The notes below the pieces were generated by a model that was not told the origin of the DNA, made no database searches, and worked only from the letters and a program-made list of their open reading frames with translations. DNA of 64,000 nt from Chloroflexota bacterium (lineage in GTDB: Bacteria > Chloroflexota > Dormibacteria > Dormibacterales > Dormibacteraceae), in contig VBEG01000027.1 of the NCBI GenBank assembly GCA_005882115.1, positions 1-64,000 of the forward strand. Reading direction: 5' to 3'. Made by a program: the position numbers and the translations under genes. Shown one piece after another: positions 4,476-43,847 of this stretch. The stretch's first letter is position 1. Each line of letters begins with the position of its first letter.

Positions 4476-6002
4476 TCATGCGTTCCGGGGGGTGGGCGGC
4501 CAGGAGTCGGTTCCTCCCCGGGCCATCAACTCGGCCAACTCGATACAGAGTCGCGTGCCGGCGCCACTTGGGCCATGGAGCACCGTGGTCAGCTCGAGGT
4601 TGGTGTTCCAGGCGGAGGCCGCGATGTCGATGTGAGCCCATGGCTTGCCGCCCGCGAACTCGGCGATGAACATTCCACCCATGATCGTGCCAGCCTCACC
4701 GTACTCGGAGTTGCGCAGATCGGCGATCTGGCTGCGGAGCAAGATGCGGTAGTCGGCGTAGATCGGCAGACGCCAGACACGGTCACCTGCCTCGCGCGAC
4801 GCTCGCTCCACCACCGCCCAGAACTCGTCGTCGTTGCTGATGGCCGCGCTCGCGGCGTGACCGATCGCCACGGTCGCGGCACCCGTGAGCGTCGCAAGGT
4901 CGATCATATGCGTCGCGCCGTTGCGAAGCGCGTGGGTCAGCGCGTCCGCGAGGACCAGCCTCCCTTCGGCGTCGGTGTTGACGATCTCGACGGTCTTGCC
5001 GTCGGCGCTGACCAACACGTCTCCCGGACGCTGGGCCGACGGGCCGGGCATGTTCTCCGCGGTCGCGATCACGGCCATCACGTCGAGCGGCACGTTGCGC
5101 GAGGCAATGACGTCTATCGCGGAGAGCACGGCGGCGGCTCCGCTCATGTCGCCCTTCATCCGGCTCATGTTTTCCGGCTGTTTGAGTGAGATGCCTCCGG
5201 AGTCGAACGTGATGCCCTTGCCGATCAACGCGAGGACCGCACCGTTCGCTTGAGCCAACCCATGGTTGCCGTGGTGACGGAGTCGGATCATTCGTGGCGG
5301 TTTGGCGGAGCCGGTGCCGACCCCGAGCAGCAGGTTGTAGCCGCCGGACTTCAGCTCGCCAGGCCCGAGGATCTCGATCTCGAGGTTGTGACGTTGCGCG
5401 ATGCGGTTGGCTTCCTGTGCGAACGCGTCGGGGGTGAGCTCGTTGGCAGGGGCGTTCTGCCATTCGCGCGCTCGGTTGGTCGCCTCTCCGTTCTCTTGCG
5501 CCGCGAGCACCTCCGCCTCGCGGCTGCCGCCAAAACCCGCCAGCACGATCTCGTCGATCTCGCGTCGCTCTGGCGCCTGGCCGGTCTGCCGGGATCGGCG
5601 CTCGAAGGTGCCCAGCACGCAACCCTCGACGACGGCCTTGAGGGTGTCCTCACCGAGTGCGTCGCTGCGCATCACGGCCATGCGCTTGTAGCCCCACGTG
5701 CGCGAAGCCCGGACCAGCTCGTGATGGGCGGAGCGCAGGCGCTGGCCGTCGAGGTCATGGTGGGCGCCGAGCCCGAAGAGGATCACGCGACGGGGCGCGA
5801 TCTTGCCCTGGGCCGGCATGGGCAGCACCTCGTGGATCCGGCCGCGGAACTCGGCGTTGACGATCATCTCCGAAAGCACGCCCCCCATCGCCCGATCGAG
5901 CTCGAGCGCGGCACCCGCCAGCTTCTGGCCGGTGACGACCGGGACCGCGAGGGCGTCGACGTTCAGCTCGGCTGCCGGGACCGAGACCAACGAGATCTTC
6001 AC
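4476..6002 (-). CDS. pepA: Leucyl aminopeptidase, M17 family
   Basis: This 508-residue cytosolic zinc/manganese aminopeptidase removes N-terminal residues from peptides. The catalytic C-terminal domain carries GKGITFDSGGISLK and the M17 signature NTDAEGRLVLADAL, with the metal ligands and the catalytic Lys and Arg in place. The N-terminal half is the less conserved macro-like domain. The ATG start (MKISLVSVPAAELNVDAL) is well placed, and the gene follows the LUD fusion gene by 26 bp. Members of this family also act as DNA-binding regulators (PepA), but nothing here tests that. Confidence 0.95.
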   Translation of the reverse strand: MKISLVSVPAAELNVDALAVPVVTGQKLAGAALELDRAMGGVLSEMIVNAEFRGRIHEVLPMPAQGKIAPRRVILFGLGAHHDLDGQRLRSAHHELVRASRTWGYKRMAVMRSDALGEDTLKAVVEGCVLGTFERRSRQTGQAPERREIDEIVLAGFGGSREAEVLAAQENGEATNRAREWQNAPANELTPDAFAQEANRIAQRHNLEIEILGPGELKSGGYNLLLGVGTGSAKPPRMIRLRHHGNHGLAQANGAVLALIGKGITFDSGGISLKQPENMSRMKGDMSGAAAVLSAIDVIASRNVPLDVMAVIATAENMPGPSAQRPGDVLVSADGKTVEIVNTDAEGRLVLADALTHALRNGATHMIDLATLTGAATVAIGHAASAAISNDDEFWAVVERASREAGDRVWRLPIYADYRILLRSQIADLRNSEYGEAGTIMGGMFIAEFAGGKPWAHIDIAASAWNTNLELTTVLHGPSGAGTRLCIELAELMARGGTDSWPPTPRNA

Positions 6003-31053: not shown

Positions 31054-34000
31054 TTGGCCAACGAGATGATCGCGTCCCGGCCGCCGGCAGCCGATCCTTT
31101 GTTCGGGGCCGCTTGGGCCGCTGCCGGACTGCCCCAGGCGTCCCGGCCGTGGAACCTGCCGGTGATCAACGCGATCGCGGCTGCGGCGGTCATCGCCGGG
31201 GTGGCCTACCGGATCTGGGAGGCCAACCTTCCGGCCACCGTGTTGCGCCAGGAGGCGGTGCTCATCGCCCTCGGCGTCGTCCTGGCGGCGATCGCGGTGG
31301 CGGTGAGGATTTCGAAGCTGGCCACCAGCCTGGTCGCGCAGCTGGCGATCATGGCCGGCGCGGCAACCCTGGCGGTCCTCGTCCTGGGGGTGGCCGGAAA
31401 GTCGCTGGGCAACGACCTGCCTCCGCTGGCAGCCGTGAGCTTCGCGGTCGTGCTGCTGCAGTTCGATGCCGGGCTCCATTCGCGTCATTTCGGCTACGTT
31501 TTCGGGGTCGCGATCGTCGCCCTGAGTCTGCTCTGGGCGTACGCGGTGACACAGCTGATGGTGTCCCTCAGCACGGTCGTGATCTGGACCCTGCTCCTGG
31601 TCGGGATCGGGCTTCTGGCGCTGCTCACAAGCCGCGCCGTACAGCGAGACCTCGGAGCCCAGGTGGCGCGCCAGAGCTCCCTGCTGGCTACCCTCAGCGA
31701 CCTTGGCGAAGGCTTGCTGATCACCGAAGACGGCCGCTTCGTCGCGGGCAATGACGCCTACGTCAAGCTCACCGGCTACACGCGTGCGGAGCTCGAGTCG
31801 ATGCAGTCACTGATCGACCTGGCTCCCGAAGAAGAACGCGAGCAGCTCGCCGCCAACCTGGCCAAAAGGCTGTCGGGCGGAGACGTTCCCGCGCGGTACA
31901 CGTCGGCTGTCATCACCAAGTCAGGCAGGCGGATCCAGGTCGAGGTCGCGATCCACCGCGTGACGACCAGGCGCAACCAGCTTCTGACATTGGTGAGCGA
32001 CATCAGCGAGCGATTACGCGCCGAAGAGGCGGAGCGGGATATGGAGACGCGATTCCGAACCCTGTTTCACCAAGCCCAGGCCGGTATGGCGTTCACCACG
32101 CTGGACGGACACATCACAACGGTCAACCCCGCGTTTTGCGACCTGGTCGGTTACGGCGACGACGAGCTGCGGACGCTCTCGCTGCTCGACATCACACACC
32201 CCGATGACGTTGCCGCGCTGCAAGAGGCGATGCATGGCATGCTCGCGGGGGAAGACGAAGGACGCCGGCTCGAGAAGCGCTACACACGTAAGGACGGCGA
32301 GCACGTCTGGGCGGACCTCACGATGCGCTTGGTGCGCGGTGCGGACCAGCGGCCGATGTACTTCCAGACCGTCACCGTCGACATCCGCGACCGCAAGCGA
32401 GCCGAGGTCCTGCAGGCGGCGAGGTTCGCGGTCACACAGGCGCTCGTCACCTCGCCTGGCTGGGAGAAGGCGGCGCCAGGACTGCTCGAAGGCCTGTGCC
32501 GCACGCTCGACTGGGAGCTTGCCGAGTACTGGGAGGTGGACGCCGAACGCGAGGCCATGCATTTCGTCACGTCGTGGAAGCGCCCCGGCCGTGACACGAC
32601 CGCATTCGAGGCGACGGCCGCGAGCGCCGCCTATCGCCGCGGCGAAGGGCTCGCAGGTCGGGTCTGGGAGGCGGGGGCGCCGATCGCCATGCCCGATCTC
32701 GGGGGCGACAATTCGCCACGTGCCGCGGCCGCGGTCGCGGCCGGGCTGCATGGGATCGTCGGCTTCCCGGTGCGCAGCGGGCGCCGCGTGGTCGGGATGA
32801 TCTCCCTTCACACCTGGGCGGCGCGGGACCTCGACGACGGTCTCGTCGCGGTGATGAACGACGTGGGCTCGCAGGTTGGCGAGTTCGTCGAGCGTAAACG
32901 CGCCGAGGTCGCACTTCAGGAAAGCGAGAAGCGCATGCGCTCGGTCCTCGACAACGTGTCCGACGGCCTGGCGACGATTGACCCCGCCGGGATCATCGAG
33001 TCGGCCAACCCCGCGGTGGTCAAGCTCTTCGGCTACTCGGAGCAGGAGTTGATGGGACAGCAGGCCGACATCGTGATCGCGACCACGCATCGCAGCGCGT
33101 TCGACAACTACCTCCAGCGCCGGCTCACGCTCGACATCCCGGTCAGCGGTGCGCACGAGACAATGGGCAAGCGCAAGAACGGGAGCCTTTTCCCGCTCGA
33201 GTTCATCGTCAGCTCGATGCAGATCGGGTCGCGCCACCTGTTCATCGCGACGCTGCGGGACATCTCGGAACGCAGGGCGCACACCGACGCGCTCGAGTAT
33301 CAGGCCCTCCACGACGCGCTCACCGGGCTGCCAAACCGGAGCCTGTTCGGCGACCGCTTGCGCCAGGCGCTGCTCGCCGCGCGTCGCAATCAGAAGATGT
33401 TTGGCGTCCTGCTGCTCGACCTCGATCGTTTCAAGGACATCAACGACGCGCTAGGCCACGACCGCGGTGACAGCCTGCTGCAGGAGGTCACGGCTCGGCT
33501 GCGCGGCGTGCTGCGGGCGACCGACACGATCGCGCGACTCGGCGGAGACGAGTTCGCGGTGCTGACGACGGACGCCAAGCATCCGGAGGACGTCGTTGCG
33601 ACCGCGCGCAAGATCCTCGCGTCGCTCGAGGGTCCCTTTGCGATTGGCGACCAGATGGTTGAGACAGGAGCATCAATCGGCATCGCCATGTACCCGGTGC
33701 ACGGCGACGATCCGAGCACGCTGCTTCGACGCGCCGACGTCGCGATGTATGTGGCCAAGCGTTCCGGTGGCGGTTGCGCGCTGTACCAGCCGGAGCAGGA
33801 GGCGCAGACCTTGCGGCGCTCAGGCCTCGCCGGCGAGCTGCGCCGATCGATTCCTCAAGGCGAGCTCATGCTCCATTACCAGCCGCAGGTGACGCTAGCG
33901 ACGGGTGCGATCCAGACCGTCGAGGCTCTTGTGAGATGGAACCACCCGCGCGAAGGACTCATGCCGCCGGACAGGTTCATCCCCATGGCGGAGGAGACCG

Positions 34001-34608
34001 GCATCATCCATCCGCTCACCGCGTGGGTCATCGATGCAGCGCTGACACAGCTCTGCCAATGGCTCGCGGACGGGATCGACGTCTCGATCTCGCTCAACGT
34101 CTCGCCACGCAGCATCGAGGACCACTCACTCGAGGAGATGGTCGCGCGGGCGCTGGGCAACTTCAAGGTCGAGCCGAGCCGCCTCACGCTCGAGATCACC
34201 GAAGGTGTGGCGATGGCCGCGGCCGCCGCCAAAGCGTTGCACCGCCTGCACGAGATCGGCGTTCGCCTTGCGCTCGACCATTTCGGCACCGGCTATTCCT
34301 CCCTGCTTTACCTGATGCGGCTGCCGGTCAACGAGATCAAGATCGACCGCTCCTTCGTCTCGGCGCTGGCGTCAGATGAGGATTCCGCCGCGATCGTCCG
34401 GTCGGCGGTTGGACTCGGTCACAACCTCGGGCTGCGCGTGGTTGCCGAGGGCTTGCAGGACCGGATCGCGGAGAGGATCCTGGTCGAAGTGGGATGCGAC
34501 GCCGCGCAAGGCTTTCTCGTTGGCCGGCCGGCCGAGGAAGGCGAAATCACCGCCCTGCTGCTGCAGCATTCCAACGCTGCTCCGCAGGCTGATCAAGCCT
34601 CGCTCTGA
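31054..34608 (+). CDS. Membrane PAS-PAS-GAF-PAS-GGDEF-EAL c-di-GMP enzyme
   Basis: This 1184-residue signalling protein has about six N-terminal membrane segments (residues 28-195), two PAS domains (about 215-450), a GAF domain (about 460-615), a third PAS (about 630-745), a GGDEF domain with an intact GGDEF at 830-834 (cyclase active site) and an EAL domain with EAL at 957-959. Most phosphodiesterase motifs are present (LNVSPRS, LEITEG, KIDRSF), but the usual DDFGTG metal motif reads DHFGTG (His 1076). It probably makes c-di-GMP and may degrade it weakly. TTG 31054 follows TATCGT by 9 nt. It adjoins the polysaccharide/exosortase genes. Confidence 0.93.
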   Translation: MANEMIASRPPAADPLFGAAWAAAGLPQASRPWNLPVINAIAAAAVIAGVAYRIWEANLPATVLRQEAVLIALGVVLAAIAVAVRISKLATSLVAQLAIMAGAATLAVLVLGVAGKSLGNDLPPLAAVSFAVVLLQFDAGLHSRHFGYVFGVAIVALSLLWAYAVTQLMVSLSTVVIWTLLLVGIGLLALLTSRAVQRDLGAQVARQSSLLATLSDLGEGLLITEDGRFVAGNDAYVKLTGYTRAELESMQSLIDLAPEEEREQLAANLAKRLSGGDVPARYTSAVITKSGRRIQVEVAIHRVTTRRNQLLTLVSDISERLRAEEAERDMETRFRTLFHQAQAGMAFTTLDGHITTVNPAFCDLVGYGDDELRTLSLLDITHPDDVAALQEAMHGMLAGEDEGRRLEKRYTRKDGEHVWADLTMRLVRGADQRPMYFQTVTVDIRDRKRAEVLQAARFAVTQALVTSPGWEKAAPGLLEGLCRTLDWELAEYWEVDAEREAMHFVTSWKRPGRDTTAFEATAASAAYRRGEGLAGRVWEAGAPIAMPDLGGDNSPRAAAAVAAGLHGIVGFPVRSGRRVVGMISLHTWAARDLDDGLVAVMNDVGSQVGEFVERKRAEVALQESEKRMRSVLDNVSDGLATIDPAGIIESANPAVVKLFGYSEQELMGQQADIVIATTHRSAFDNYLQRRLTLDIPVSGAHETMGKRKNGSLFPLEFIVSSMQIGSRHLFIATLRDISERRAHTDALEYQALHDALTGLPNRSLFGDRLRQALLAARRNQKMFGVLLLDLDRFKDINDALGHDRGDSLLQEVTARLRGVLRATDTIARLGGDEFAVLTTDAKHPEDVVATARKILASLEGPFAIGDQMVETGASIGIAMYPVHGDDPSTLLRRADVAMYVAKRSGGGCALYQPEQEAQTLRRSGLAGELRRSIPQGELMLHYQPQVTLATGAIQTVEALVRWNHPREGLMPPDRFIPMAEETGIIHPLTAWVIDAALTQLCQWLADGIDVSISLNVSPRSIEDHSLEEMVARALGNFKVEPSRLTLEITEGVAMAAAAAKALHRLHEIGVRLALDHFGTGYSSLLYLMRLPVNEIKIDRSFVSALASDEDSAAIVRSAVGLGHNLGLRVVAEGLQDRIAERILVEVGCDAAQGFLVGRPAEEGEITALLLQHSNAAPQADQASL

Positions 34609-35423
34609 AAGCACTCGTCTTCGGCGCTGGAGGTCAGCTCGGCACAGAGCTCGTGCGTCTGCTGGGAAATGAAAGCGGGGTGCCGCACGAGCGGCTGTCG
34701 ATTACCGACGCTCCAGCTGTCGAAGCGCTCATCGCCGCGGGCAGACCGGACGTCGTCTTCAACTGCGCGGCCTACAACGAGGTGGATCGAGCCGAGTCCG
34801 CGTCGGAGCTCGCCCACGCCGTCAATGCGGCCGCCCCGCACAACGTCGCTCTCGCGTGCAACCGGCATGGCGCAGCGCTCGTCCACTTCTCGACCAACTT
34901 TGTTTTCGACGGCCGCAAGGAAGAGCCGTACGTCGAGGTGGACGAGCCTTCTCCGCTTTCCGTGTACGGCAGATCGAAGCTCGAGGGTGAGCGCCAGGTG
35001 CTGCAGTCAGGCGCGACTGCCTTGATCATCAGAACGGCCGCGGTTTTCGGCGGCGGCGTCAATTTCCCTATGCGCATCCTCGGTCGTGCGCGGTTCGGCG
35101 AGCGGTTGCGCATCGTCGCGGACCAGAAGGTGAACCCGACCTACGCCAAAGATCTGGCGGCCGCCGCGGTCGAGTTGTGGGAGAGCGGGGTCACCGGCAT
35201 CGTCCACGCCGCGGCCGATGGTTGCGTCTCGTGGGATGAGTTCGCGCGTGCCGTGCTCGCGGACTTTGGAGTCTCCGCGGAAGTGGAGTCAGTCGCCACC
35301 ACAGCTTTCGCGTCAGCAGCGCGGCGGCCGGCGAACGGGTGCCTCGCGACGACGCGTTACCGGTTGCTCCGGCCATGGCGGCAGGCGCTCAAGGAGTGGT
35401 CTGAGGAGACTCGTCGCCACTAA
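34605..35423 (+). CDS. RmlD-like dTDP-4-dehydrorhamnose reductase, probable CTG start
   Basis: From CTG 34605 the protein reads LKALVFGAGGQLGTELVRLL, the exact RmlD N-terminus with its NAD(P)-binding GxxGxxG. It continues with VVFNCAAYNEVDRAE, FSTNFVFDG, the YxxxK motif SVYGRSKLEGE and a normal C-terminus, 272 residues in all. The first canonical start, GTG 34653, would delete the cofactor motif. The CTG overlaps the preceding stop as CTGA. RmlD makes dTDP-L-rhamnose for surface glycans. The other rml genes are not in the window, so reduction of a different dTDP-sugar is possible. Confidence 0.88.
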   Translation: MKALVFGAGGQLGTELVRLLGNESGVPHERLSITDAPAVEALIAAGRPDVVFNCAAYNEVDRAESASELAHAVNAAAPHNVALACNRHGAALVHFSTNFVFDGRKEEPYVEVDEPSPLSVYGRSKLEGERQVLQSGATALIIRTAAVFGGGVNFPMRILGRARFGERLRIVADQKVNPTYAKDLAAAAVELWESGVTGIVHAAADGCVSWDEFARAVLADFGVSAEVESVATTAFASAARRPANGCLATTRYRLLRPWRQALKEWSEETRRH

Positions 35424-35751: not shown

Positions 35752-36108
35752 TTGCAGAGATTGATCAGTTCGAAGGATGTGGCCACTCGCCTTGGCGTCA
35801 GCCAGGCGACTGTGGCGCGCGCCGTGGGAAGGGGTCTCCTGCGTGCCGCCATGATCACCCCCGGCGGCCACCGGCGGTTCAGCGAGGCGGACGTCGAGGC
35901 GTATGCCTTGAGCCTCCAGGACGAGCCCGACGGCGCCCGGCTGATCACCACCGGCGAGGCCGCCCGTCTGTTAGGCGTTAGCCAGCCGACCTTGAATCGC
36001 GCCGTCCGCCGAGGCTTGCTCCATCCAACCCTCACGACTCCAGGCGGACACCGCCGTTTCGACAGCGCCGAGCTGAGCGCGGCTCTCTATTTCGAGGACG
36101 AGATCTGA
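35752..36108 (+). CDS. Tandem BldC/MerR-like HTH regulator
   Basis: The 118-residue protein is a duplication of one small DNA-binding domain. Copy 1 (about residues 5-52) has DVATRLGVSQATVARAVGRG and TPGGHRRFSEADVEAY. Copy 2 (about 65-112) has EAARLLGVSQPTLNRAVRRG and TPGGHRRFDSAEL. Single-copy proteins of this type include BldC and the HTH part of MerR. Two linked copies could bind direct-repeat operators as one chain. Start TTG 35752 is tentative; TTG 35761 is possible. The stop lies 2 nt before the glycosyltransferase GTG, so it is probably the operon's own regulator. Confidence 0.82.
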   Translation: MQRLISSKDVATRLGVSQATVARAVGRGLLRAAMITPGGHRRFSEADVEAYALSLQDEPDGARLITTGEAARLLGVSQPTLNRAVRRGLLHPTLTTPGGHRRFDSAELSAALYFEDEI

Positions 36109-36110
36109 GC

Positions 36111-38507
36111 GTGGCGGGAGAAGATCCGGCTCATCTCACGGGCGCGTCGCAGGCGCCCGGTCACGGATTCCGCGGAATCGCCTGGAGCGTCCTGCTCAAC
36201 GCCGTGCTCATCGGCGCGTTTGTCATCGGCGCGATCCCGATCGTCGCCATTGCACGCGGTTTTCTCGACCTGGTCCAGCAATCGGAGATCCAGAGCGGTG
36301 CCGACTGGATCGCTTATGGATTCGCTTTCGCGGGACTCTTCCTGGGCGCAATCTTCTTCGCCTACGCGGTCAAGTACTACCTGAGCACCGCGATGGTGCT
36401 GCTGACAACCCTTGTCGGCACGCCGCGAAACGGCAACGGCGCGGGCAAGGCCAACGGCAACGGGTTGAACCGGATCAACGGCAACGGCAACGGCTATCAC
36501 CTCGACCTCGGATATCAACCCTTCGTCTCGATTCATGTCGCGGCGTACAACGAGAAACGTGTCATCGAGCGGTTGCTGACCGCGCTCTCGCAGCTCGACT
36601 ACCCCGAGTACGAGGTGGTCGTCGTCGACGACTCCACCGACGAATCGATCCAGATCCTGCAGCGCTGGGTGAACCGTCCCCGATTCAAGATCCTGCACCG
36701 CACGAGTCGCGCCGGTTACAAGGGAGGGGCGCTGCGCGAGGCGCTCAAGGTCATGGACCCCCGCACCGAGTACGTCGTGGTGTTCGACGCCGACTCGGTG
36801 CCTTTCCCGGACTCCATCGAGCGCCTGCTGCCCCTCTTCTATCGGGTCAGCGACGGCGCCTCCAGCAAGCGGTTCGAAGCCGCCTTCGGCCGTACGGAGC
36901 CTCCCTCGGAACCTGGCCAGGTCAAGCGCCGGCCCGAGGTCGCCGCCGTGCAGAGCTACCAGTGGCACGTGCTCAACAAGTCGGAGAGCTGGCTGACCGA
37001 GGCCGTGCGCGCTGAATACGCGGGCAGCTACATGATTGAGCGGCCCTTCCAGGACGCGATCGGCTCTTTGAAGATGATCGCGGGCACGGCTTACATGATC
37101 CGCGCGGACGTTCTGCGCCAGGTCGGTTGGGGCACCAGCATCACCGAGGACTGGGAGCTCACTCTCAAGCTCTACACGCGCGGCTATAAGGTGATCTATA
37201 CGCCATGGGCCGAGACGCCGGCCGAATGCGTAAGCACTTTCTCGCGGCTGGCGCGGCAGCGGATGCGTTGGGCGGAAGGACACACGCACAACGTCCGCAA
37301 GTGGTTCTTGCCGATCATGACCTCACCGCTCGTCACGCCAATCGAAAAGCTCGAGTTCCTGTACGACGCGTCCTATTACCTGCAGGCCGGGCTGTTCGTC
37401 ATCGGCTCGCTGAGCTGGCTCATCTCTGAAGTCATCTTCCAGACCCACGTTCCCGGCTGGACGGCGCTCCTCGGATGGTCGCTCCTGTTCTCCAACATTT
37501 TCGCGCTCCCGCTGATGAACCTCGGCGGCTTGATCCTCGAAGAGGCGCCGGCCCGTGACGTGCAGGGCGTATTCGGGGCACTCGTGCTGTCATTCGCGCT
37601 CGTTCCATTCCAGGGTTGGGCGGCATTCAAAGGACTGATCAGTCGCGACGAAGGCCCGTGGTTCCGCACGCCGAAGACGGGCCGGGTCACCGACGAGGTG
37701 CGCCACCTTCGGAGGCTGTACATGCTTGGCCGCTGGCTGCGCGGGCGCCGCGGTGCGCCGCGCTGGACGTCGGCGACCACGCCCATTGCCAAGCCATCGC
37801 CCTTCCGCGCGACGCCGCACAAGCGCTGGGTTGGCTGGTTTGTCATCGGATCGCTCGTCCTCCTTTTCGGCGGCCTGGTCGCGGCCTCGATGCGTGCCCC
37901 GACCGTGAGCGCCGCCGGCAATCCGCTTTATCTCCACGGCACCGGCACGGCTCCGGGATGCGTCGCCAGCACCGTCGACCAGGCGGTCGGGACGCGGGCC
38001 ACCGCGTGCCAGGTCCAGTCGGGCGGCGGATCGACGACCTGGTCGTTCAGCGGCATCCCGGCGCAGACAGTCGCGGCAGGCGTGTGGACTTTCACAATGA
38101 ACTGGACGGGCGGCACCGGCGCGACCAGCGACACTGTCGCCATCGCGGCTGGTGTCTCGGCGACCGCCAGCTGCGCAGGCTTCCTGGCCACGGTCCCCAA
38201 CGTCGGCTCGACGTGGACGACGACCTACGGGGCGAACGGCGTCAACCCAACCAGCCCGTTCACGGTGAGCACCAGCGCGAGCCAGCTCGCGATGGTCATC
38301 CCACCCGGCGGGTCGCTGTGCATCCAGGTGACACTGACGCACAACACGGGCGGCAAGCCGTCCATGGTCTATGACGGGACGGCGGGCGTGGGCGACACCA
38401 ATTTCGTGCCGCCGAGCATTGTCGTGCCCGAGTCGCTGCTCGGTCTCGTCGGACTGGTGGTGGTAGTCCCGCTGTTGGTGAGGCGGTTGGTGAGGAGACC
38501 GAGGTGA
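36111..38507 (+). CDS. GT2 cellulose-synthase-like glycosyltransferase with C-terminal VPES sorting signal
   Basis: The 798-residue protein starts with two membrane segments, an Asn/Gly-rich linker (about 105-128) and a processive GT2 domain with VVVDDST, VFDADS, SITEDWELT and QRMRW (BcsA-type catalytic set). Further membrane segments follow (about 420-520), then a helix at about 582-602. After it comes an unusual extracytoplasmic region of about 170 residues rich in Thr, Ser and Gly with four Cys. The end is tripartite: VPES (772-775), a hydrophobic stretch LLGLVGLVVVVPLLV, then RRLVRRPR, as in PEP-CTERM-like exosortase substrates. The exosortase gene overlaps its stop. It probably polymerises a surface glycan and is itself cleaved or anchored. 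Confidence 0.88.
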   Translation: MAGEDPAHLTGASQAPGHGFRGIAWSVLLNAVLIGAFVIGAIPIVAIARGFLDLVQQSEIQSGADWIAYGFAFAGLFLGAIFFAYAVKYYLSTAMVLLTTLVGTPRNGNGAGKANGNGLNRINGNGNGYHLDLGYQPFVSIHVAAYNEKRVIERLLTALSQLDYPEYEVVVVDDSTDESIQILQRWVNRPRFKILHRTSRAGYKGGALREALKVMDPRTEYVVVFDADSVPFPDSIERLLPLFYRVSDGASSKRFEAAFGRTEPPSEPGQVKRRPEVAAVQSYQWHVLNKSESWLTEAVRAEYAGSYMIERPFQDAIGSLKMIAGTAYMIRADVLRQVGWGTSITEDWELTLKLYTRGYKVIYTPWAETPAECVSTFSRLARQRMRWAEGHTHNVRKWFLPIMTSPLVTPIEKLEFLYDASYYLQAGLFVIGSLSWLISEVIFQTHVPGWTALLGWSLLFSNIFALPLMNLGGLILEEAPARDVQGVFGALVLSFALVPFQGWAAFKGLISRDEGPWFRTPKTGRVTDEVRHLRRLYMLGRWLRGRRGAPRWTSATTPIAKPSPFRATPHKRWVGWFVIGSLVLLFGGLVAASMRAPTVSAAGNPLYLHGTGTAPGCVASTVDQAVGTRATACQVQSGGGSTTWSFSGIPAQTVAAGVWTFTMNWTGGTGATSDTVAIAAGVSATASCAGFLATVPNVGSTWTTTYGANGVNPTSPFTVSTSASQLAMVIPPGGSLCIQVTLTHNTGGKPSMVYDGTAGVGDTNFVPPSIVVPESLLGLVGLVVVVPLLVRRLVRRPR

Positions 38508-39085
38508 GGACGCGGGAGAGCGACAACGTCAACCTCACCCTGATCGCGCTGACGTGCGCGCTGCTGATGGTGCTGCCGTTGGTCACGACGTTCGATGACC
38601 TCCTCACCTCATTGGCCATGGGCCTCGGCGCGAACAATCCGCTGCAAGCGATCGTGCCCGTCGAGTCGCGCATGGTCGTGAGCATGCTCGGCCTCCTCGG
38701 CGTCCACGCCGCCGCGTCGGGAAGCCACATGGTCGTGTGGGACGGCTCGGGCTCGATGCACACGCTCTTCATCTCGTGGAACTGCATCGGGTGGCAGAGC
38801 CTCATCCTCTTCGGGGTCAGCCTCATCTCAGGACTGCGTGGCGGTCACGGTTTGGAGATGCGCGTCCAGGTGATCCTCATCGGGGTCGCCGGCACGATGC
38901 TGCTCAACCTCGTGCGAGTCGCCCTCGTCGCGTTGATTGCCGCCACGGTAGGTGTTGGGCCGGCCATCTTCCTTCACGATTACGGCGGCACCGTGCTGTT
39001 CGTAGGCTTCCTGTTCGCGTTCTGGGCTTTCGCCCAACGCTGGATCCTCGCCCCGGTCCTTTTGGAGGGCGAAGCCACCGTATGA
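38504..39085 (+). CDS. Exosortase/archaeosortase family transpeptidase
   Basis: This 193-residue polytopic membrane protein has five to six hydrophobic segments and the three exosortase active-site regions in order: Cys 94 in SWNCIGWQSL, Arg 138 in NLVRVALVAL and His 158 in FLHDYGGTVLF. Exosortases recognise a short C-terminal signal on secreted proteins and cleave it, often linking the product to a surface glycan or lipid. The family is generally paired with PEP-CTERM-like targets; here the preceding gene ends with such a signal and overlaps this one (GTGA, 4 nt). That argues for a dedicated one-enzyme, one-substrate pair. Compact size is close to the single-target forms. Confidence 0.85.
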   Translation: MRTRESDNVNLTLIALTCALLMVLPLVTTFDDLLTSLAMGLGANNPLQAIVPVESRMVVSMLGLLGVHAAASGSHMVVWDGSGSMHTLFISWNCIGWQSLILFGVSLISGLRGGHGLEMRVQVILIGVAGTMLLNLVRVALVALIAATVGVGPAIFLHDYGGTVLFVGFLFAFWAFAQRWILAPVLLEGEATV

Positions 39086-41310
39086 ACCGGTGGGTCCGCC
39101 TCGGCGTGCAGACCGCCTTTGGGCTCGCCCTGTTGTGGCTGTGGCTGCGCACCGTTTCGCTGCCCGAGATCCTTGCCCACGCGCACGTCCATAGCTGGTG
39201 GGCCGTCGCCCTGATGGTCGTGCTGTTCCTCGTCACCAGCTTGATCCGCGCCCGGCGCTGGCTGCTCCTGCTGCGCCCGCTGGCACCGGTCGGCATGGTC
39301 CGCGCCTTCGCGATGAACGCAGCCGGCGGATTGCTCAACTACGTGCTGCCGATCCGCTCCGGCGACGCGGCGCGGGCGTGGTGGCTGTGGCGAAGGCACC
39401 GGATCCCGGCCGGATCCGCGCTGGCGACGATCGTCATCGACAAGGCATGCGACCTCGCGGCGGTGGCCCTGTTCCTTGCCGGCCTCGAGGTGGTGGCACT
39501 CAGCGGAGCCGTCAACGCGCCGCGTGGTCTAGCGGGCGCCGCGGCCCTGGCGATCGCGCTGCTGGCGGCGGTGCTCGGCACCGCGCTCGCCGGCCCCGGG
39601 ATCGCTCGGTCGAGTCTCGCCCGGCGGCTCATTCCAGCGCGGTTCGCCTCGGCGATCGCCGGCCAGGTCTTCGCGTTCCGGGCCGGAGCGCGGGGGCTCT
39701 GGACGCCTCAGCTGACAGCGCGCCTCGCGGGTCTCACCGTGCTGGCACTCGTGATCGACGCATTCAACTTCACGCTGCTGTTCATAGCGGTCGGCATCTC
39801 GGTCCCGCCGCTGAAAGCGATGGCCGCCTATCCCGCTCTGCTCCTCAGTTTCGCGGTGCCGGCAGGTCCCGGCTATCTGGGCAACCTCGAGGTCGCGGGG
39901 GCGCTGGTGCTTGGCGGCGGACTCGGACTCGCCGCGGGCGTCGCCGCCGGGGCGATCGTCCTCTACCACGCCCTCACCGCCGCCTACGCCCTGACGCTCG
40001 GGGTGCTGAGCTTTTTCCTCGTCGGCGGCAGGCGCGACGTGCGGAAGAAAGGCACGCGCCGGATCGCCGTCTTCCACTGTGGCTTCACTTACTCGGGCGG
40101 CGGCGAGCGGATTGTCATCGAAGAGGTACTTGGCCTGCGCAGGCGGGGCTACGACGTCGAGTGCTACGCGCCGACGGTCAACGCGTCTCGCTGTTATCCG
40201 GACCTCATCGGCGAGGTCAGGGTGAAGACGTTCCTGCCCCAGCTGCCCCGCTGGTTCCCCTTCCGCGAGGCGGTGCAGATGGCCGCGACCTCGCTCCTGA
40301 TGCCCCTCTACGCGTGGCGGTTCCGTGGTGTCGACGCCATCGTCGGCTGCAACCAGCCGAGCGCGTGGATCGCATGGTGGGCGGCGCGCCTGATGGATGT
40401 GCCGTACGTCGTCTACTTGAACCAGCCGAACCGGCTCGTCTACCCGCGCAACATCGACCGCCAGACAGGCTGGGTCTCCAACGCCGACTACCGCCTGCTC
40501 GCCGCGATCGTCCTGCGCGCGACGCGCTTTGTCGCGTGGGCCGACCGCCGCTCGATCCAGGAGGCAAATCAGCTGCTGGTCAATGGCGACTACATCGGCG
40601 ACATCATTCGCCACACTTACAAGCGCGACGCCGTCGACTGCCCCGCGGGTTGCCACGTCGCCGCGTCAGGCTACCCGCTGCCGATCGAGGCGCGCTTCTC
40701 AGGCGGCCTGACGATCAACGGCTATCCGATCCGCAGACCGTATGTGCTTCTCACCAACCGGCACTATCCGCAGAAGCGTTTCGACCTCGCGATCAAGGCC
40801 TTCGCCAAGGTGCGCAAGCGCCATCCGCGCGCGCAGCTTGTGATTCCGGGACCGCCGACATCGCACACCGCGTCGCTGAAGGAGCTGGTAATCGAACTCG
40901 GGCTCCAAGATTCGGTGCTGTTCCTGGGGCCGATCAGCGAGGAAGAGCTGCAGTCGCTGTACGCGGGCGCCGCGGTCTATGTCTATCCCGCACCGGAGGA
41001 GGACTTCGGCATGGGCGTCATCGAATCAATGGCGAAGGGTGTCCCGGTGGTGGCGTGGAACCAGGCTGGTCCAACTGTGACGGTGGGGCCGGGAACCGGA
41101 TACCTGGCCGAGCCGCTGGACGTCGAGGATTACGCGGCGGGTATCGTCGCGCTGCTCGACAGCCGGGCCGAGAACCAGGCCGCCGGCGAGCGCGCCTTTG
41201 AGTGGGCGCGACGCTTCGATTGGGAGAGGCACATCGACACGTTAGAGCGCGTTGTGCTCGTTGTGGCACGGGAGCACGAGCAAATCGCAGCCGAGGCCGC
41301 AACAGCCTGA
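39082..41310 (+). CDS. YbhN/LPG-synthase-like flippase fused to GT4 glycosyltransferase
   Basis: In this 742-residue fusion, residues 1-320 form the polytopic UPF0104/lysylphosphatidylglycerol-synthase transmembrane region (LRTVSLPEIL, RARRWLLLLRPL, GLLNYVLPIRSGDAARA, AGPGYLGNLEVAG). Residues about 330-742 are a GT-B family 4 glycosyltransferase with FTYSGGGERIVIEEV for the donor loop, NRHYPQKRFDLAIKAF and the EDFGMGVIESMAKGVPVVAW motif. The membrane part may bind or move a lipid-linked intermediate that the GT extends. ATG 39082 overlaps the exosortase stop by 4 nt, placing it in the same operon. Confidence 0.9.
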   Translation: MNRWVRLGVQTAFGLALLWLWLRTVSLPEILAHAHVHSWWAVALMVVLFLVTSLIRARRWLLLLRPLAPVGMVRAFAMNAAGGLLNYVLPIRSGDAARAWWLWRRHRIPAGSALATIVIDKACDLAAVALFLAGLEVVALSGAVNAPRGLAGAAALAIALLAAVLGTALAGPGIARSSLARRLIPARFASAIAGQVFAFRAGARGLWTPQLTARLAGLTVLALVIDAFNFTLLFIAVGISVPPLKAMAAYPALLLSFAVPAGPGYLGNLEVAGALVLGGGLGLAAGVAAGAIVLYHALTAAYALTLGVLSFFLVGGRRDVRKKGTRRIAVFHCGFTYSGGGERIVIEEVLGLRRRGYDVECYAPTVNASRCYPDLIGEVRVKTFLPQLPRWFPFREAVQMAATSLLMPLYAWRFRGVDAIVGCNQPSAWIAWWAARLMDVPYVVYLNQPNRLVYPRNIDRQTGWVSNADYRLLAAIVLRATRFVAWADRRSIQEANQLLVNGDYIGDIIRHTYKRDAVDCPAGCHVAASGYPLPIEARFSGGLTINGYPIRRPYVLLTNRHYPQKRFDLAIKAFAKVRKRHPRAQLVIPGPPTSHTASLKELVIELGLQDSVLFLGPISEEELQSLYAGAAVYVYPAPEEDFGMGVIESMAKGVPVVAWNQAGPTVTVGPGTGYLAEPLDVEDYAAGIVALLDSRAENQAAGERAFEWARRFDWERHIDTLERVVLVVAREHEQIAAEAATA

Positions 41311-43847
41311 GATCCCTTCGCCGCAGGTGGGGCGACGTCGCCTGCATCGCTTCGATTGCCGCTGTCACCCTTGTGGTCGGTTTCCTCAACCAGGCCTTCC
41401 AGGGCTTCCCGAAGGGCTACGACGCCTACGGCCACATGTCCAAGATCAAGTTCCTGGTCGACAACTTTCCGAACGTCGACTGGAACTATGAGTGGTACGC
41501 CGGCCAGTACTTCTCGGAGGGCTCATTCCCGCCCCTGTTCCACTACGCGGCGGGCGTCCTGGTTGGGTTTGGCCTCCCGATCGGAGACGCCATCATTGTC
41601 CTCGCGGCGTTCGCCTTCGTCGTCATCGGTTGCGCGCTCTACGGGCTTGTTCGGGTCGCCACGGACAGCCGGGTCGCGGGGCTGATCGCCGCCCTGATCC
41701 TCCTCAGCTCCAACGCCTTCTGGGCGTACGTGCTGGTTGGTGGTCTGTATCCCCGCATCCTCGGCATGGCATTTTTCAGCCTTTTCGCCTTCTTCGCGGT
41801 CGTCCATCAGACCCGGCCGTCGCGGCCGGCCTTTGCCGCCATGGTCCTGTCCCTGGCAGCCGCCATGAGCACGCACTTGCTGCTGGGCGCGATCGGGGTC
41901 GCCTTCGCGGTGGGCTTGATCGCGGTGATGCCGCTGCCGCCCGCCCAGAAGTCCGCTCGGGCCGCCACACTTTTGGTGACGACCGGACTCCTGGCTGCTT
42001 TCTTCTACGTGCCGTATGCGGTCACGCTGTCGACGCCCGCTCCGGTGCCGACGTTCACGCGCGAGTACGGCCAGGTCGACTTGAAGTCGCTCTTCGCGGG
42101 CATGGAATCACTTCCACTCCTGCTGTTTCCACTCTTGGCCGTCGGAATCGCCGGCGCCTACAGCTTGCGGCGCCGATTCGCTTCGACGCCGGCCGCGCGG
42201 TTGATGATCGTGGCCGGACTGGCGGGTGCAGCCTGCGCCGTCTACGCGCTCGCTGGCCTGGCCGGCACCCACGTCTTCATCTACAACTTTCAGCCTGGCC
42301 AGGCGACATATTTCGCTGCCTGGTTTTTCGCCGCCCTCGCTGGTTTGTCGCTGTGGTGGGTCTCGCGGCGGCGGTGGCTCGCCGAGGCTTTGATCGCGGC
42401 ACTGCTCGCCCAGCTCGTGCTGACGACCCCCGGCCTCTCCGGCGGAGTCATCAACGGGGACAATGCCGACAAGCGTCCCCTGGTGGGCGCACTCGCCCTC
42501 GATCCCAACGAACGGCAGTACCGCGTGGGAGTGTCCTGGGACGGCGGCTCGGACTGGATCAACAGTCGCAGCGGCGTGCCGCAGACGCGCGGCTATCAGC
42601 AGCAGGGCGTCCTTCGCGGCGACTGGCAGTACTGGCTCGAGCGCGCGGTCTGGAGCGCCGACTCCAACTACGCGGAGGCGAACTTCCTGCTCGACTGGTA
42701 CGCGGTGCGCTCGCTCTACGCGGGACCCGACCCCGACGTCGTGCGCCGTTTCGAGGCGAGGCCAGATCTCTACAGGCTCCTCTCCGCCGGCTCACCCGCC
42801 TTCGCGCGGACGTTCGAATACCCGGCTGCGACGCCCGTCCTTTCGGCGAGCGATGCACGCACCGCGCTCGTGATCGGCGACGCCACCGCCTACAGCCTGG
42901 TCCTGAGGTCGATCGCCCTGGCGGATTTCGACAGCCGCGCGTTGATCCCGATCCGCGGTGGCGAGTACCTGGACAGCCACTCCCTCGCCGAGCTCAGTCG
43001 ATTCGACGAGGTGATCCTGTACCAGTACCGCGTCCACGATCGCGCGAAAGGACTGGCCCTGCTCGATCGATATGTCGAGGGCGGCGGCAGCGCCTTCATC
43101 GAAGCGAGCGGTTCAGACCTGGACCAGGCAGGTGCGGCCTCGACGCCGATCCCAGGCGCCGAGATCAAACGGACCGCAATCGGTCCCGACTGGGGCCTGG
43201 CTCGAACATCGAGCCCCATCGCCGCCGGCCTCGACCTGACTGCGTTCTCGCCGGCCGTCTACAGCGGCGGGCCCTGGGGCATCTCCTACATCCCCGAGGG
43301 CTCCATTGCGTCCTGGGCAACGCCGGTCCTTCTGAGCAACGGCTACCCGGTGCTGGTCGCGGGGACCCTCGGCCGGGGCCGCGTCGTGTGGAGCGGCATG
43401 AACCTGCCCTACCACGCATCGAGCACGCGCAACTCGCAGGAATCCCTACTGCTGGCGCAGGCCATCGCGTGGGCCGCGCCTGCCGGCGGTGCGGCGGCCC
43501 CATATCGGGCGACGTTCGTGAATCCGCAGGCACGATCGATCCGCCTCGAGGGTCCCGCGAAAGGGGTTCTTTTCAAGGAGAACTGGGTACCCAACTGGCG
43601 GGCGACGGTGGATGGGAGGCAGGTCGAGATCTATCCAGCCGGGCCCGACTTCATGTACGTCCCGCTGGGTGGGTTCAGCCATCCGGCGGTTGTGGAGCTG
43701 ACCTTCACGCGAACCGCGTTGGAGTGGATCGGGGATGCCATCTCGTTGCTGACGCTGGCCGGGCTCATGCTGTATCTGGTCGGGGCGTCAGGTCGACGTC
43801 TGCGACGGCGTCGCGCCCGGGTGGAGGCGGTTCGGGCTCAAGACTGA
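41307..43847 (+). CDS. Large polytopic membrane protein (6-PTPS-related type), probable CTG start
   Basis: The 846-residue protein has about ten membrane segments in its first half (WNYEWYAGQYFSEGSFPPLF in an early external loop, VGGLYPRILGMAFFSLFAFF) and a large soluble C-terminal half with GRGRVVWSGMNLPYHA and a last membrane helix. It resembles the 6-pyruvoyl-tetrahydropterin-synthase-related membrane proteins and GT-C-type transferases found in polysaccharide loci; the reaction is unknown. CTG 41307 overlaps the previous stop as CTGA and gives a basic start before the first helix; ATG 41202 would overlap the upstream gene by 109 bp. Its 3' end overlaps the convergent GT87 gene by 60 bp. 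Confidence 0.75.
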   Translation: MRSLRRRWGDVACIASIAAVTLVVGFLNQAFQGFPKGYDAYGHMSKIKFLVDNFPNVDWNYEWYAGQYFSEGSFPPLFHYAAGVLVGFGLPIGDAIIVLAAFAFVVIGCALYGLVRVATDSRVAGLIAALILLSSNAFWAYVLVGGLYPRILGMAFFSLFAFFAVVHQTRPSRPAFAAMVLSLAAAMSTHLLLGAIGVAFAVGLIAVMPLPPAQKSARAATLLVTTGLLAAFFYVPYAVTLSTPAPVPTFTREYGQVDLKSLFAGMESLPLLLFPLLAVGIAGAYSLRRRFASTPAARLMIVAGLAGAACAVYALAGLAGTHVFIYNFQPGQATYFAAWFFAALAGLSLWWVSRRRWLAEALIAALLAQLVLTTPGLSGGVINGDNADKRPLVGALALDPNERQYRVGVSWDGGSDWINSRSGVPQTRGYQQQGVLRGDWQYWLERAVWSADSNYAEANFLLDWYAVRSLYAGPDPDVVRRFEARPDLYRLLSAGSPAFARTFEYPAATPVLSASDARTALVIGDATAYSLVLRSIALADFDSRALIPIRGGEYLDSHSLAELSRFDEVILYQYRVHDRAKGLALLDRYVEGGGSAFIEASGSDLDQAGAASTPIPGAEIKRTAIGPDWGLARTSSPIAAGLDLTAFSPAVYSGGPWGISYIPEGSIASWATPVLLSNGYPVLVAGTLGRGRVVWSGMNLPYHASSTRNSQESLLLAQAIAWAAPAGGAAAPYRATFVNPQARSIRLEGPAKGVLFKENWVPNWRATVDGRQVEIYPAGPDFMYVPLGGFSHPAVVELTFTRTALEWIGDAISLLTLAGLMLYLVGASGRRLRRRRARVEAVRAQD

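Follow-up and report, generated by a model that had tools for sequence, protein, structure and literature searches.

The window (the whole 64,000-nucleotide stretch analysed, on contig C91) belongs to the MAG of a soil bacterium of Candidatus Dormibacterota (assembly 3.36 Mb, 96.5% complete), whose closest relatives are other Candidatus Dormibacterota MAGs. Within it, the gene for a GT2 glycosyltransferase (798 aa) is joined by a 4-nt overlap (GTGA) to the gene for an exosortase (193 aa; Table 1). The GT2 protein is composed, in order, of a BcsA/PgaC-like processive GT, an internal signal-peptide-like segment, an ectodomain and a VPE sorting signal. Its C-terminal end, PPSIVVPESLLGLVGLVVVVPLLVRRLVRRPR, has all three parts of a CTERM layout (short motif, hydrophobic helix, basic cluster): V772 P773 E774, a helix at residues 775-790 and the basic stretch RRLVRRPR at 791-798. 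The sequence-only reading of this DNA had described both this tripartite tail on a BcsA-like GT and the 4-nt overlap with a compact exosortase gene, and is supported on each point, by the ORF translations, the processive-synthase motifs and a profile of the tail (E 1.9e-15). Inside the CTERM helix, 14 residues past P773, bacterial and archaeal sequences alike nearly always have a proline, Pro787 (window positions 38469-38471).

Table 1 Features of the GT2-exosortase locus (window coordinates).
Feature	Coordinates	Strand	Basis or remark
RmlD, dTDP-4-dehydrorhamnose reductase	34653..35423	+	TIGR01214 243 bits, above cut-off; conserved neighbour
Double HTH_17/excisionase-type protein	35752..36108	+	HTH_17 5.1e-23, 2 stretches
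GT2-CTERM fusion, 798 aa	36111..38507	+	PF13641 8.8e-25, PF00535 1.2e-20
GT2 catalytic domain, about residues 133-400	36507..37310	+	Domain matches, conserved motifs
Internal signal-peptide-like segment, residues 570-601	37818..37913	+	-3/-1 rule in 26/26 bacterial homologues
Extracytoplasmic domain, residues 602-771, Ser/Thr rich	37914..38423	+	No Pfam match
VPE-CTERM sorting signal, residues 772-798	38424..38504	+	E774 invariant, P773/P787 nearly so, in 30 GTs
Exosortase, 193 aa	38504..39085	+	PF09721 and TIGR04178 above cut-off; sole PF09721 match in genome
Flippase-like (LPG_synthase_TM, TIGR00374) + GT4 fusion	39082..41310	+	4-nt overlap with exosortase stop
Large polytopic membrane protein	41202..43847	+	PF10131 0.0003, PF20176 9.3e-6, TIGR04154 5e-5, all under cut-off

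The motifs VVDDS (171), DADS (226), ITEDWE (344) and QRMRW (383) of the GT domain are invariant across 30 homologues. They correspond to the D, DxD, TED and QxxRW set that, with flanking membrane helices, the protein shares with PgaC/IcaA and BcsA, in keeping with a processive GT2 synthase. PgaC and CelA are the nearest models, with scores far under the equivalog cut-offs (89.9 of 422 and 63.4 of 699). Unlike PgaC/IcaA and BcsA, the window GT continues into a C-terminal ectodomain and CTERM. Among exosortase-linked GT models the best score (49.5 bits; cut-off 520) was obtained with the XrtP-associated GT (NF053846), also a GT2 tied to an exosortase; this model has 440 positions and thus covers no long ectodomain or CTERM.

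Targets of PEP-CTERM systems are said always to carry an N-terminal signal peptide (PMC3237569). The N terminus of the GT2 protein is the GT itself, without an N-terminal signal peptide, and the usual signal peptide had been read as absent here; however, the outer domain has a candidate of its own, placed internally, after the last helix of the GT and ahead of the ectodomain. This segment reads HKRW-VGWFVIGSLVLLFGGLVAAS-MRAPTVSA, and signal peptidase I is predicted to cleave behind Ala601 (MRAPTVSA/AGNPLYL, the slash here and below marking the start of the ectodomain). All 26 bacterial homologues (26/26) have V, A or S at position -3 (599) and A, G or S at -1 (601), and 25/26 keep Pro597. The Ala601 site is assigned by the -3/-1 rule, and a strict [AVST]xA site follows the segment helix in 24/26 sequences vs 55/125 for the other GT helices, which match by chance in 44% (kinship ignored). 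Sequences from Bathyarchaeota and Terraquivivens are without an obvious AxA site. The ectodomain gave no match in Pfam or PHROGs and is Thr/Ser rich as first read, with S+T at 26% over 164 residues. As it has its own signal-peptide-like segment, the C-terminal part of the protein has the full make-up of an exosortase substrate of the ordinary kind, joined to a GT.

The 193-aa protein scores above the curated cut-offs of PF09721 (30.6 bits; cut-off 25.7) and TIGR04178 (32.4; cut-off 23). Cys94 (38783-38785), Arg138 (38915-38917) and His158 (38975-38977), the motif residues named in the sequence-only reading, show no variation across 25 aligned bacterial and archaeal members. These features place the protein in the exosortase/archaeosortase family, with transpeptidase/protease activity predicted from sequence. 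Comparison with the named subfamilies (XrtA to XrtY, ArtA to ArtF, Crt), which that reading had proposed, left the protein under every cut-off, the best scores being XrtX 28.2 of 170, CrtC 27.7 of 225 and ArtC 26.8 of 100. Seven relatives from other phyla were likewise under all subfamily cut-offs and fit the general signature alone. No solved structure with sequence similarity to the window exosortase was found.

The double-HTH gene, 2 nt upstream of the GT and also GT-upstream in most close Dormibacterota relatives, likely encodes a regulator. The large polytopic protein that follows the flippase-like/GT4 gene has weak PTPS_related/DUF6541/STT3-like matches and is a possible glycan transferase of the cluster. 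GT87 and epimerase genes are also part of the cluster, and in the window's family there is a GGDEF/EAL gene (31054-34608) further upstream.

The PF09721 search found one exosortase in the host genome. The tail profile gave a single match across the same genome (next E 0.35), so that no further VPE-tailed protein was seen there, and the PEP-CTERM model (TIGR02595) gave no match at E <= 1. On the three points on which the sequence-only reading had allowed for refutation, the exosortase passes its HMMs, no tailless full-length homologue of the GT turned up next to an intact exosortase, and extra VPE proteins were not found in this genome. Co-occurrence in relatives points the same way: among 121 genomes of the phylum, mostly MAGs, an intact exosortase and the tail occur in the same 6 (6 of 6; Fisher 2.6e-10, kinship ignored), although these counts include related genomes and are not independent of ancestry. 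In a set of 61 relatives, the exosortase and the GT subfamily are both present in 31 and both missing from 27. The exceptions are G031, with the GT alone (cut by a contig end), and G004 and G019, where exosortase remnants without the Cys half persist and no GT of this subfamily was found. The corresponding G019 locus keeps its GGDEF, RmlD, flippase-GT4 and epimerase genes but has lost the HTH, the GT and the greater part of the exosortase. The last ~39 exosortase codons are left there before the flippase-GT4 gene, as a scar of joint loss (contig C28, L183; about 4762-5144). The proposal of a dedicated pair holds for the host genome, with one exosortase and one tail; it does not extend to G161 (five tails, some on proteins without a GT) or G060 (at least two tails, both on a contig that has no GT).

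A scan with the exosortase alignment, covering one genome per species, identified 79 loci, in Dormibacterota, Anaerolineae, Dehalococcoidaceae, several Patescibacteria, Bathyarchaeota and Terraquivivens. At about 59 of the 79 the exosortase is adjoined by a tailed GT of this type (52 called by script, plus L093, L096, L085, L098, L106, L108 and L130, missed through a boundary effect of stop-to-stop ORFs). Chloroflexota, Patescibacteria, Bathyarchaeota and Terraquivivens all have cases of the arrangement. Five more loci contain a tailed ORF whose GT is cut or split, and the remainder are mostly at contig edges. In L131 and L151 the tail of the GT is weak or one gene removed, in L145 a tailed fragment is one gene away, and in L138 the GT ORF has no clear tail. 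The exosortase precedes the GT in L133 and L140, indicating that proximity is conserved although gene order is not. Some Chloroflexota GT fusions (L117, L121, L122 and L116) have a response-regulator receiver domain at the N terminus, accompanied in L117, L121 and L116 by an MshEN domain (known as a c-di-GMP-binding fold), the same polypeptide thus running from signalling to sorting in one ORF. In Patescibacteria, transposase-type HTH repeats are fused to, or lead into, the GT (L127, 10118-11071; L132, 3695-5338; L146, 5250-7868), and a similar HTH ORF lies near the exosortases in L134 (4557-5432).

The module formed by signal-peptide-like helix, ectodomain and tail is also found in other contexts. 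Tailed proteins without a GT occur in L064 (901-1761), where the junction with the ectodomain reads APIAEA/AGSTWYLHG, with the same signal-peptide end, and in L185 (5999-8092; APAAA/V). In G060, two GT fusions flank one exosortase and tailed proteins without a GT are also present (L103/L063, L064), one of which begins with a CxxC segment (CFHCGLPLTEW). A single ORF in L115 (3-6131) encodes a GT and then three units of signal-peptide-like helix, ectodomain and CTERM-like end with basic tail; the signal sites are IATA/S, VSA/A and VEA/A and the CTERM motifs, in order, MPGV (degenerate), VPEW and VPEN. L129 (7119-12905) has a similar but degenerate tandem array in a single ORF, in which the first internal CTERM is without PE. 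Both ORFs are possible surface polyproteins. In three Bathyarchaeota contigs (L135, 3892-5313; L143, 9902-11323; L148, 5081-6466), an exosortase itself continues in frame into a signal-peptide-like helix, ectodomain and tail (VPE or VSE), and these fusions are flanked by a tailed GT on one side and another exosortase on the other.

Conservation along the GT2 protein is uneven. Among 30 GTs from bacteria and archaea, E774 is the sole invariant residue C-terminal to T527, with P773, P787, P597, G657, Y754 and A783 nearly invariant. The ectodomain is hardly alignable beyond close relatives, where identity falls to 10-30%; between Dormibacterota and archaea it is about 10-16%, vs 30-39% for the tail. 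A suffix that stays fixed while the preceding domain varies freely is the pattern expected of a processing signal. Distance matrices of GT and exosortase are correlated (r 0.95), but this mostly reflects common descent and was given little weight.

Parts of this arrangement have counterparts in known systems. PEP-CTERM/exosortase (XrtA, EpsH) systems of Gram-negative bacteria share the tripartite PE signal, a multi-pass Cys/Arg/His enzyme and an exopolysaccharide context (PMC1569441, PMC12188702), but usually have many separate secreted targets (PMC3237569), whereas here there is one, fused to a GT2 and with its signal peptide internal. Archaeosortase A of Haloferax volcanii, for which C-terminal cleavage is coupled to lipid attachment and a thioester at the active-site Cys has been proposed (PMC7157517), is also Cys-based, but recognises a PGF motif on many targets, which are surface proteins rather than glycosyltransferases. 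HVO_0405 sets a precedent: although its CTERM lies inside a natural fusion of domains, it can be processed (PMC7157517). In XrtG clusters of Gram-positive bacteria an exosortase also stands beside a GT2, but the Firmicu-CTERM target is separate from the GTs (PMC12854382) and the GT models are of about 440 aa. The window proteins do not reach the XrtG-system models (TIGR03110, 18.1 vs 102.75; TIGR03111 for the GT, 31.3 vs 363.95). The XrtG label was therefore rejected, in agreement with the sequence-only reading, which had set this locus apart from exosortase G. A GT2 carrying a whole substrate module, tandem modules or a module-bearing exosortase were not found in the literature searched, which did not extend to the field's main review; GT-CTERM fusions may have been described earlier (e.g. 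in the archaeosortase/exosortase paper of Haft et al. 2012). Nor were surface polyproteins that mature through signal peptidase and exosortase found described in the papers searched.

The module structure, the pairing and the catalytic residues can be read directly from the sequences. Taken together, the GT2 gene encodes a fusion of a membrane polysaccharide synthase (BcsA/PgaC type) and a complete exosortase substrate, whose VPE signal would be recognised by the sole exosortase, encoded next to it. That this exosortase acts on the signal is a strong inference from sequence, because of co-occurrence, co-loss and invariance. By analogy with archaeosortase A, Cys94 would form a thioester near VPE774 with release of the C-terminal helix, and the new C terminus would then pass to an amine or hydroxyl acceptor. 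Signal peptidase I would cut after Ala601, as the conserved site and the standalone and tandem forms suggest, separating the ectodomain from the synthase; the ectodomain would then become a protein of the surface or matrix, produced in a 1:1 ratio to the synthase. A membrane lipid or a lipid-linked glycan of the cluster is the probable acceptor, the latter being plausible because RmlD, flippase-like/GT4, PTPS/STT3-like, GT87 and epimerase proteins are all encoded there. It is rather unlikely that the exosortase joins the ectodomain C terminus to the very glycan or lipid-linked sugar just made by the GT domain of the same polypeptide; if it did, a protein-polysaccharide conjugate would be made 1:1 in one complex, and the Bathyarchaeota exosortase fusion would be a second route to such coupling.

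We favour, with somewhat better than even confidence, this polyprotein reading, in which signal peptidase and exosortase together would free and anchor the ectodomain, over the self-anchoring synthase first proposed. In the latter, the internal helix would be an uncut transmembrane segment and the exosortase would trim the C terminus and join it to lipid or glycan, with the ectodomain staying on the synthase, e.g. to hold the emerging polymer. In favour of this reading, PgaC/BcsA synthases do handle polymer with extra domains, archaeal members have no clear AxA site, and the module is GT-fused in the great majority of loci across wide taxa, a fusion for which mere cargo would have no need. However, the -3/-1 site is conserved in all 26 bacterial homologues, and standalone copies and tandem arrays with a fresh signal peptide for each unit are sensible only if each unit is cut free or, at the least, secreted on its own. 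With its own internal signal-peptide-like segment, the ectodomain is more likely released from the GT, and a self-anchored synthase is considered unlikely.

The tail could also be a mere stop-transfer anchor inherited with the GT, the exosortase having other substrates or another role, since a helix with basic residues is a general membrane-anchor layout and exosortase activity is predicted only. This is improbable given the joint presence and absence of tail and exosortase in the 121 genomes, an invariant E774 amid a variable ectodomain, the same tail at the end of non-GT proteins in genomes with this exosortase, and a host genome with neither a second tail nor a PEP-CTERM protein. Least probable is a diverged XrtG-type system with a separate small CTERM protein as its true target. 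XrtG is also accompanied by a GT2, and the PTPS_related-like membrane protein found here may have counterparts in XrtG clusters, but the scores of both XrtG-system models are far under cut-off and a second tail of this kind is missing from the genome.

Exosortases are known mainly through comparative genomics, and many have dozens of targets. The locus provides one exosortase and one target, encoded by overlapping genes and accompanied by candidate acceptor-making enzymes, in a pairing found in bacteria and archaea. With a single enzyme and a single substrate the question of what an exosortase attaches its target to becomes testable, and the locus offers a clean one-to-one pair for working out the role of such sorting enzymes. 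The tandem arrays and exosortase fusions suggest surface polyproteins in prokaryotes that mature through signal peptidase and exosortase, and the GT2 fusion physically links polysaccharide synthesis to protein sorting.
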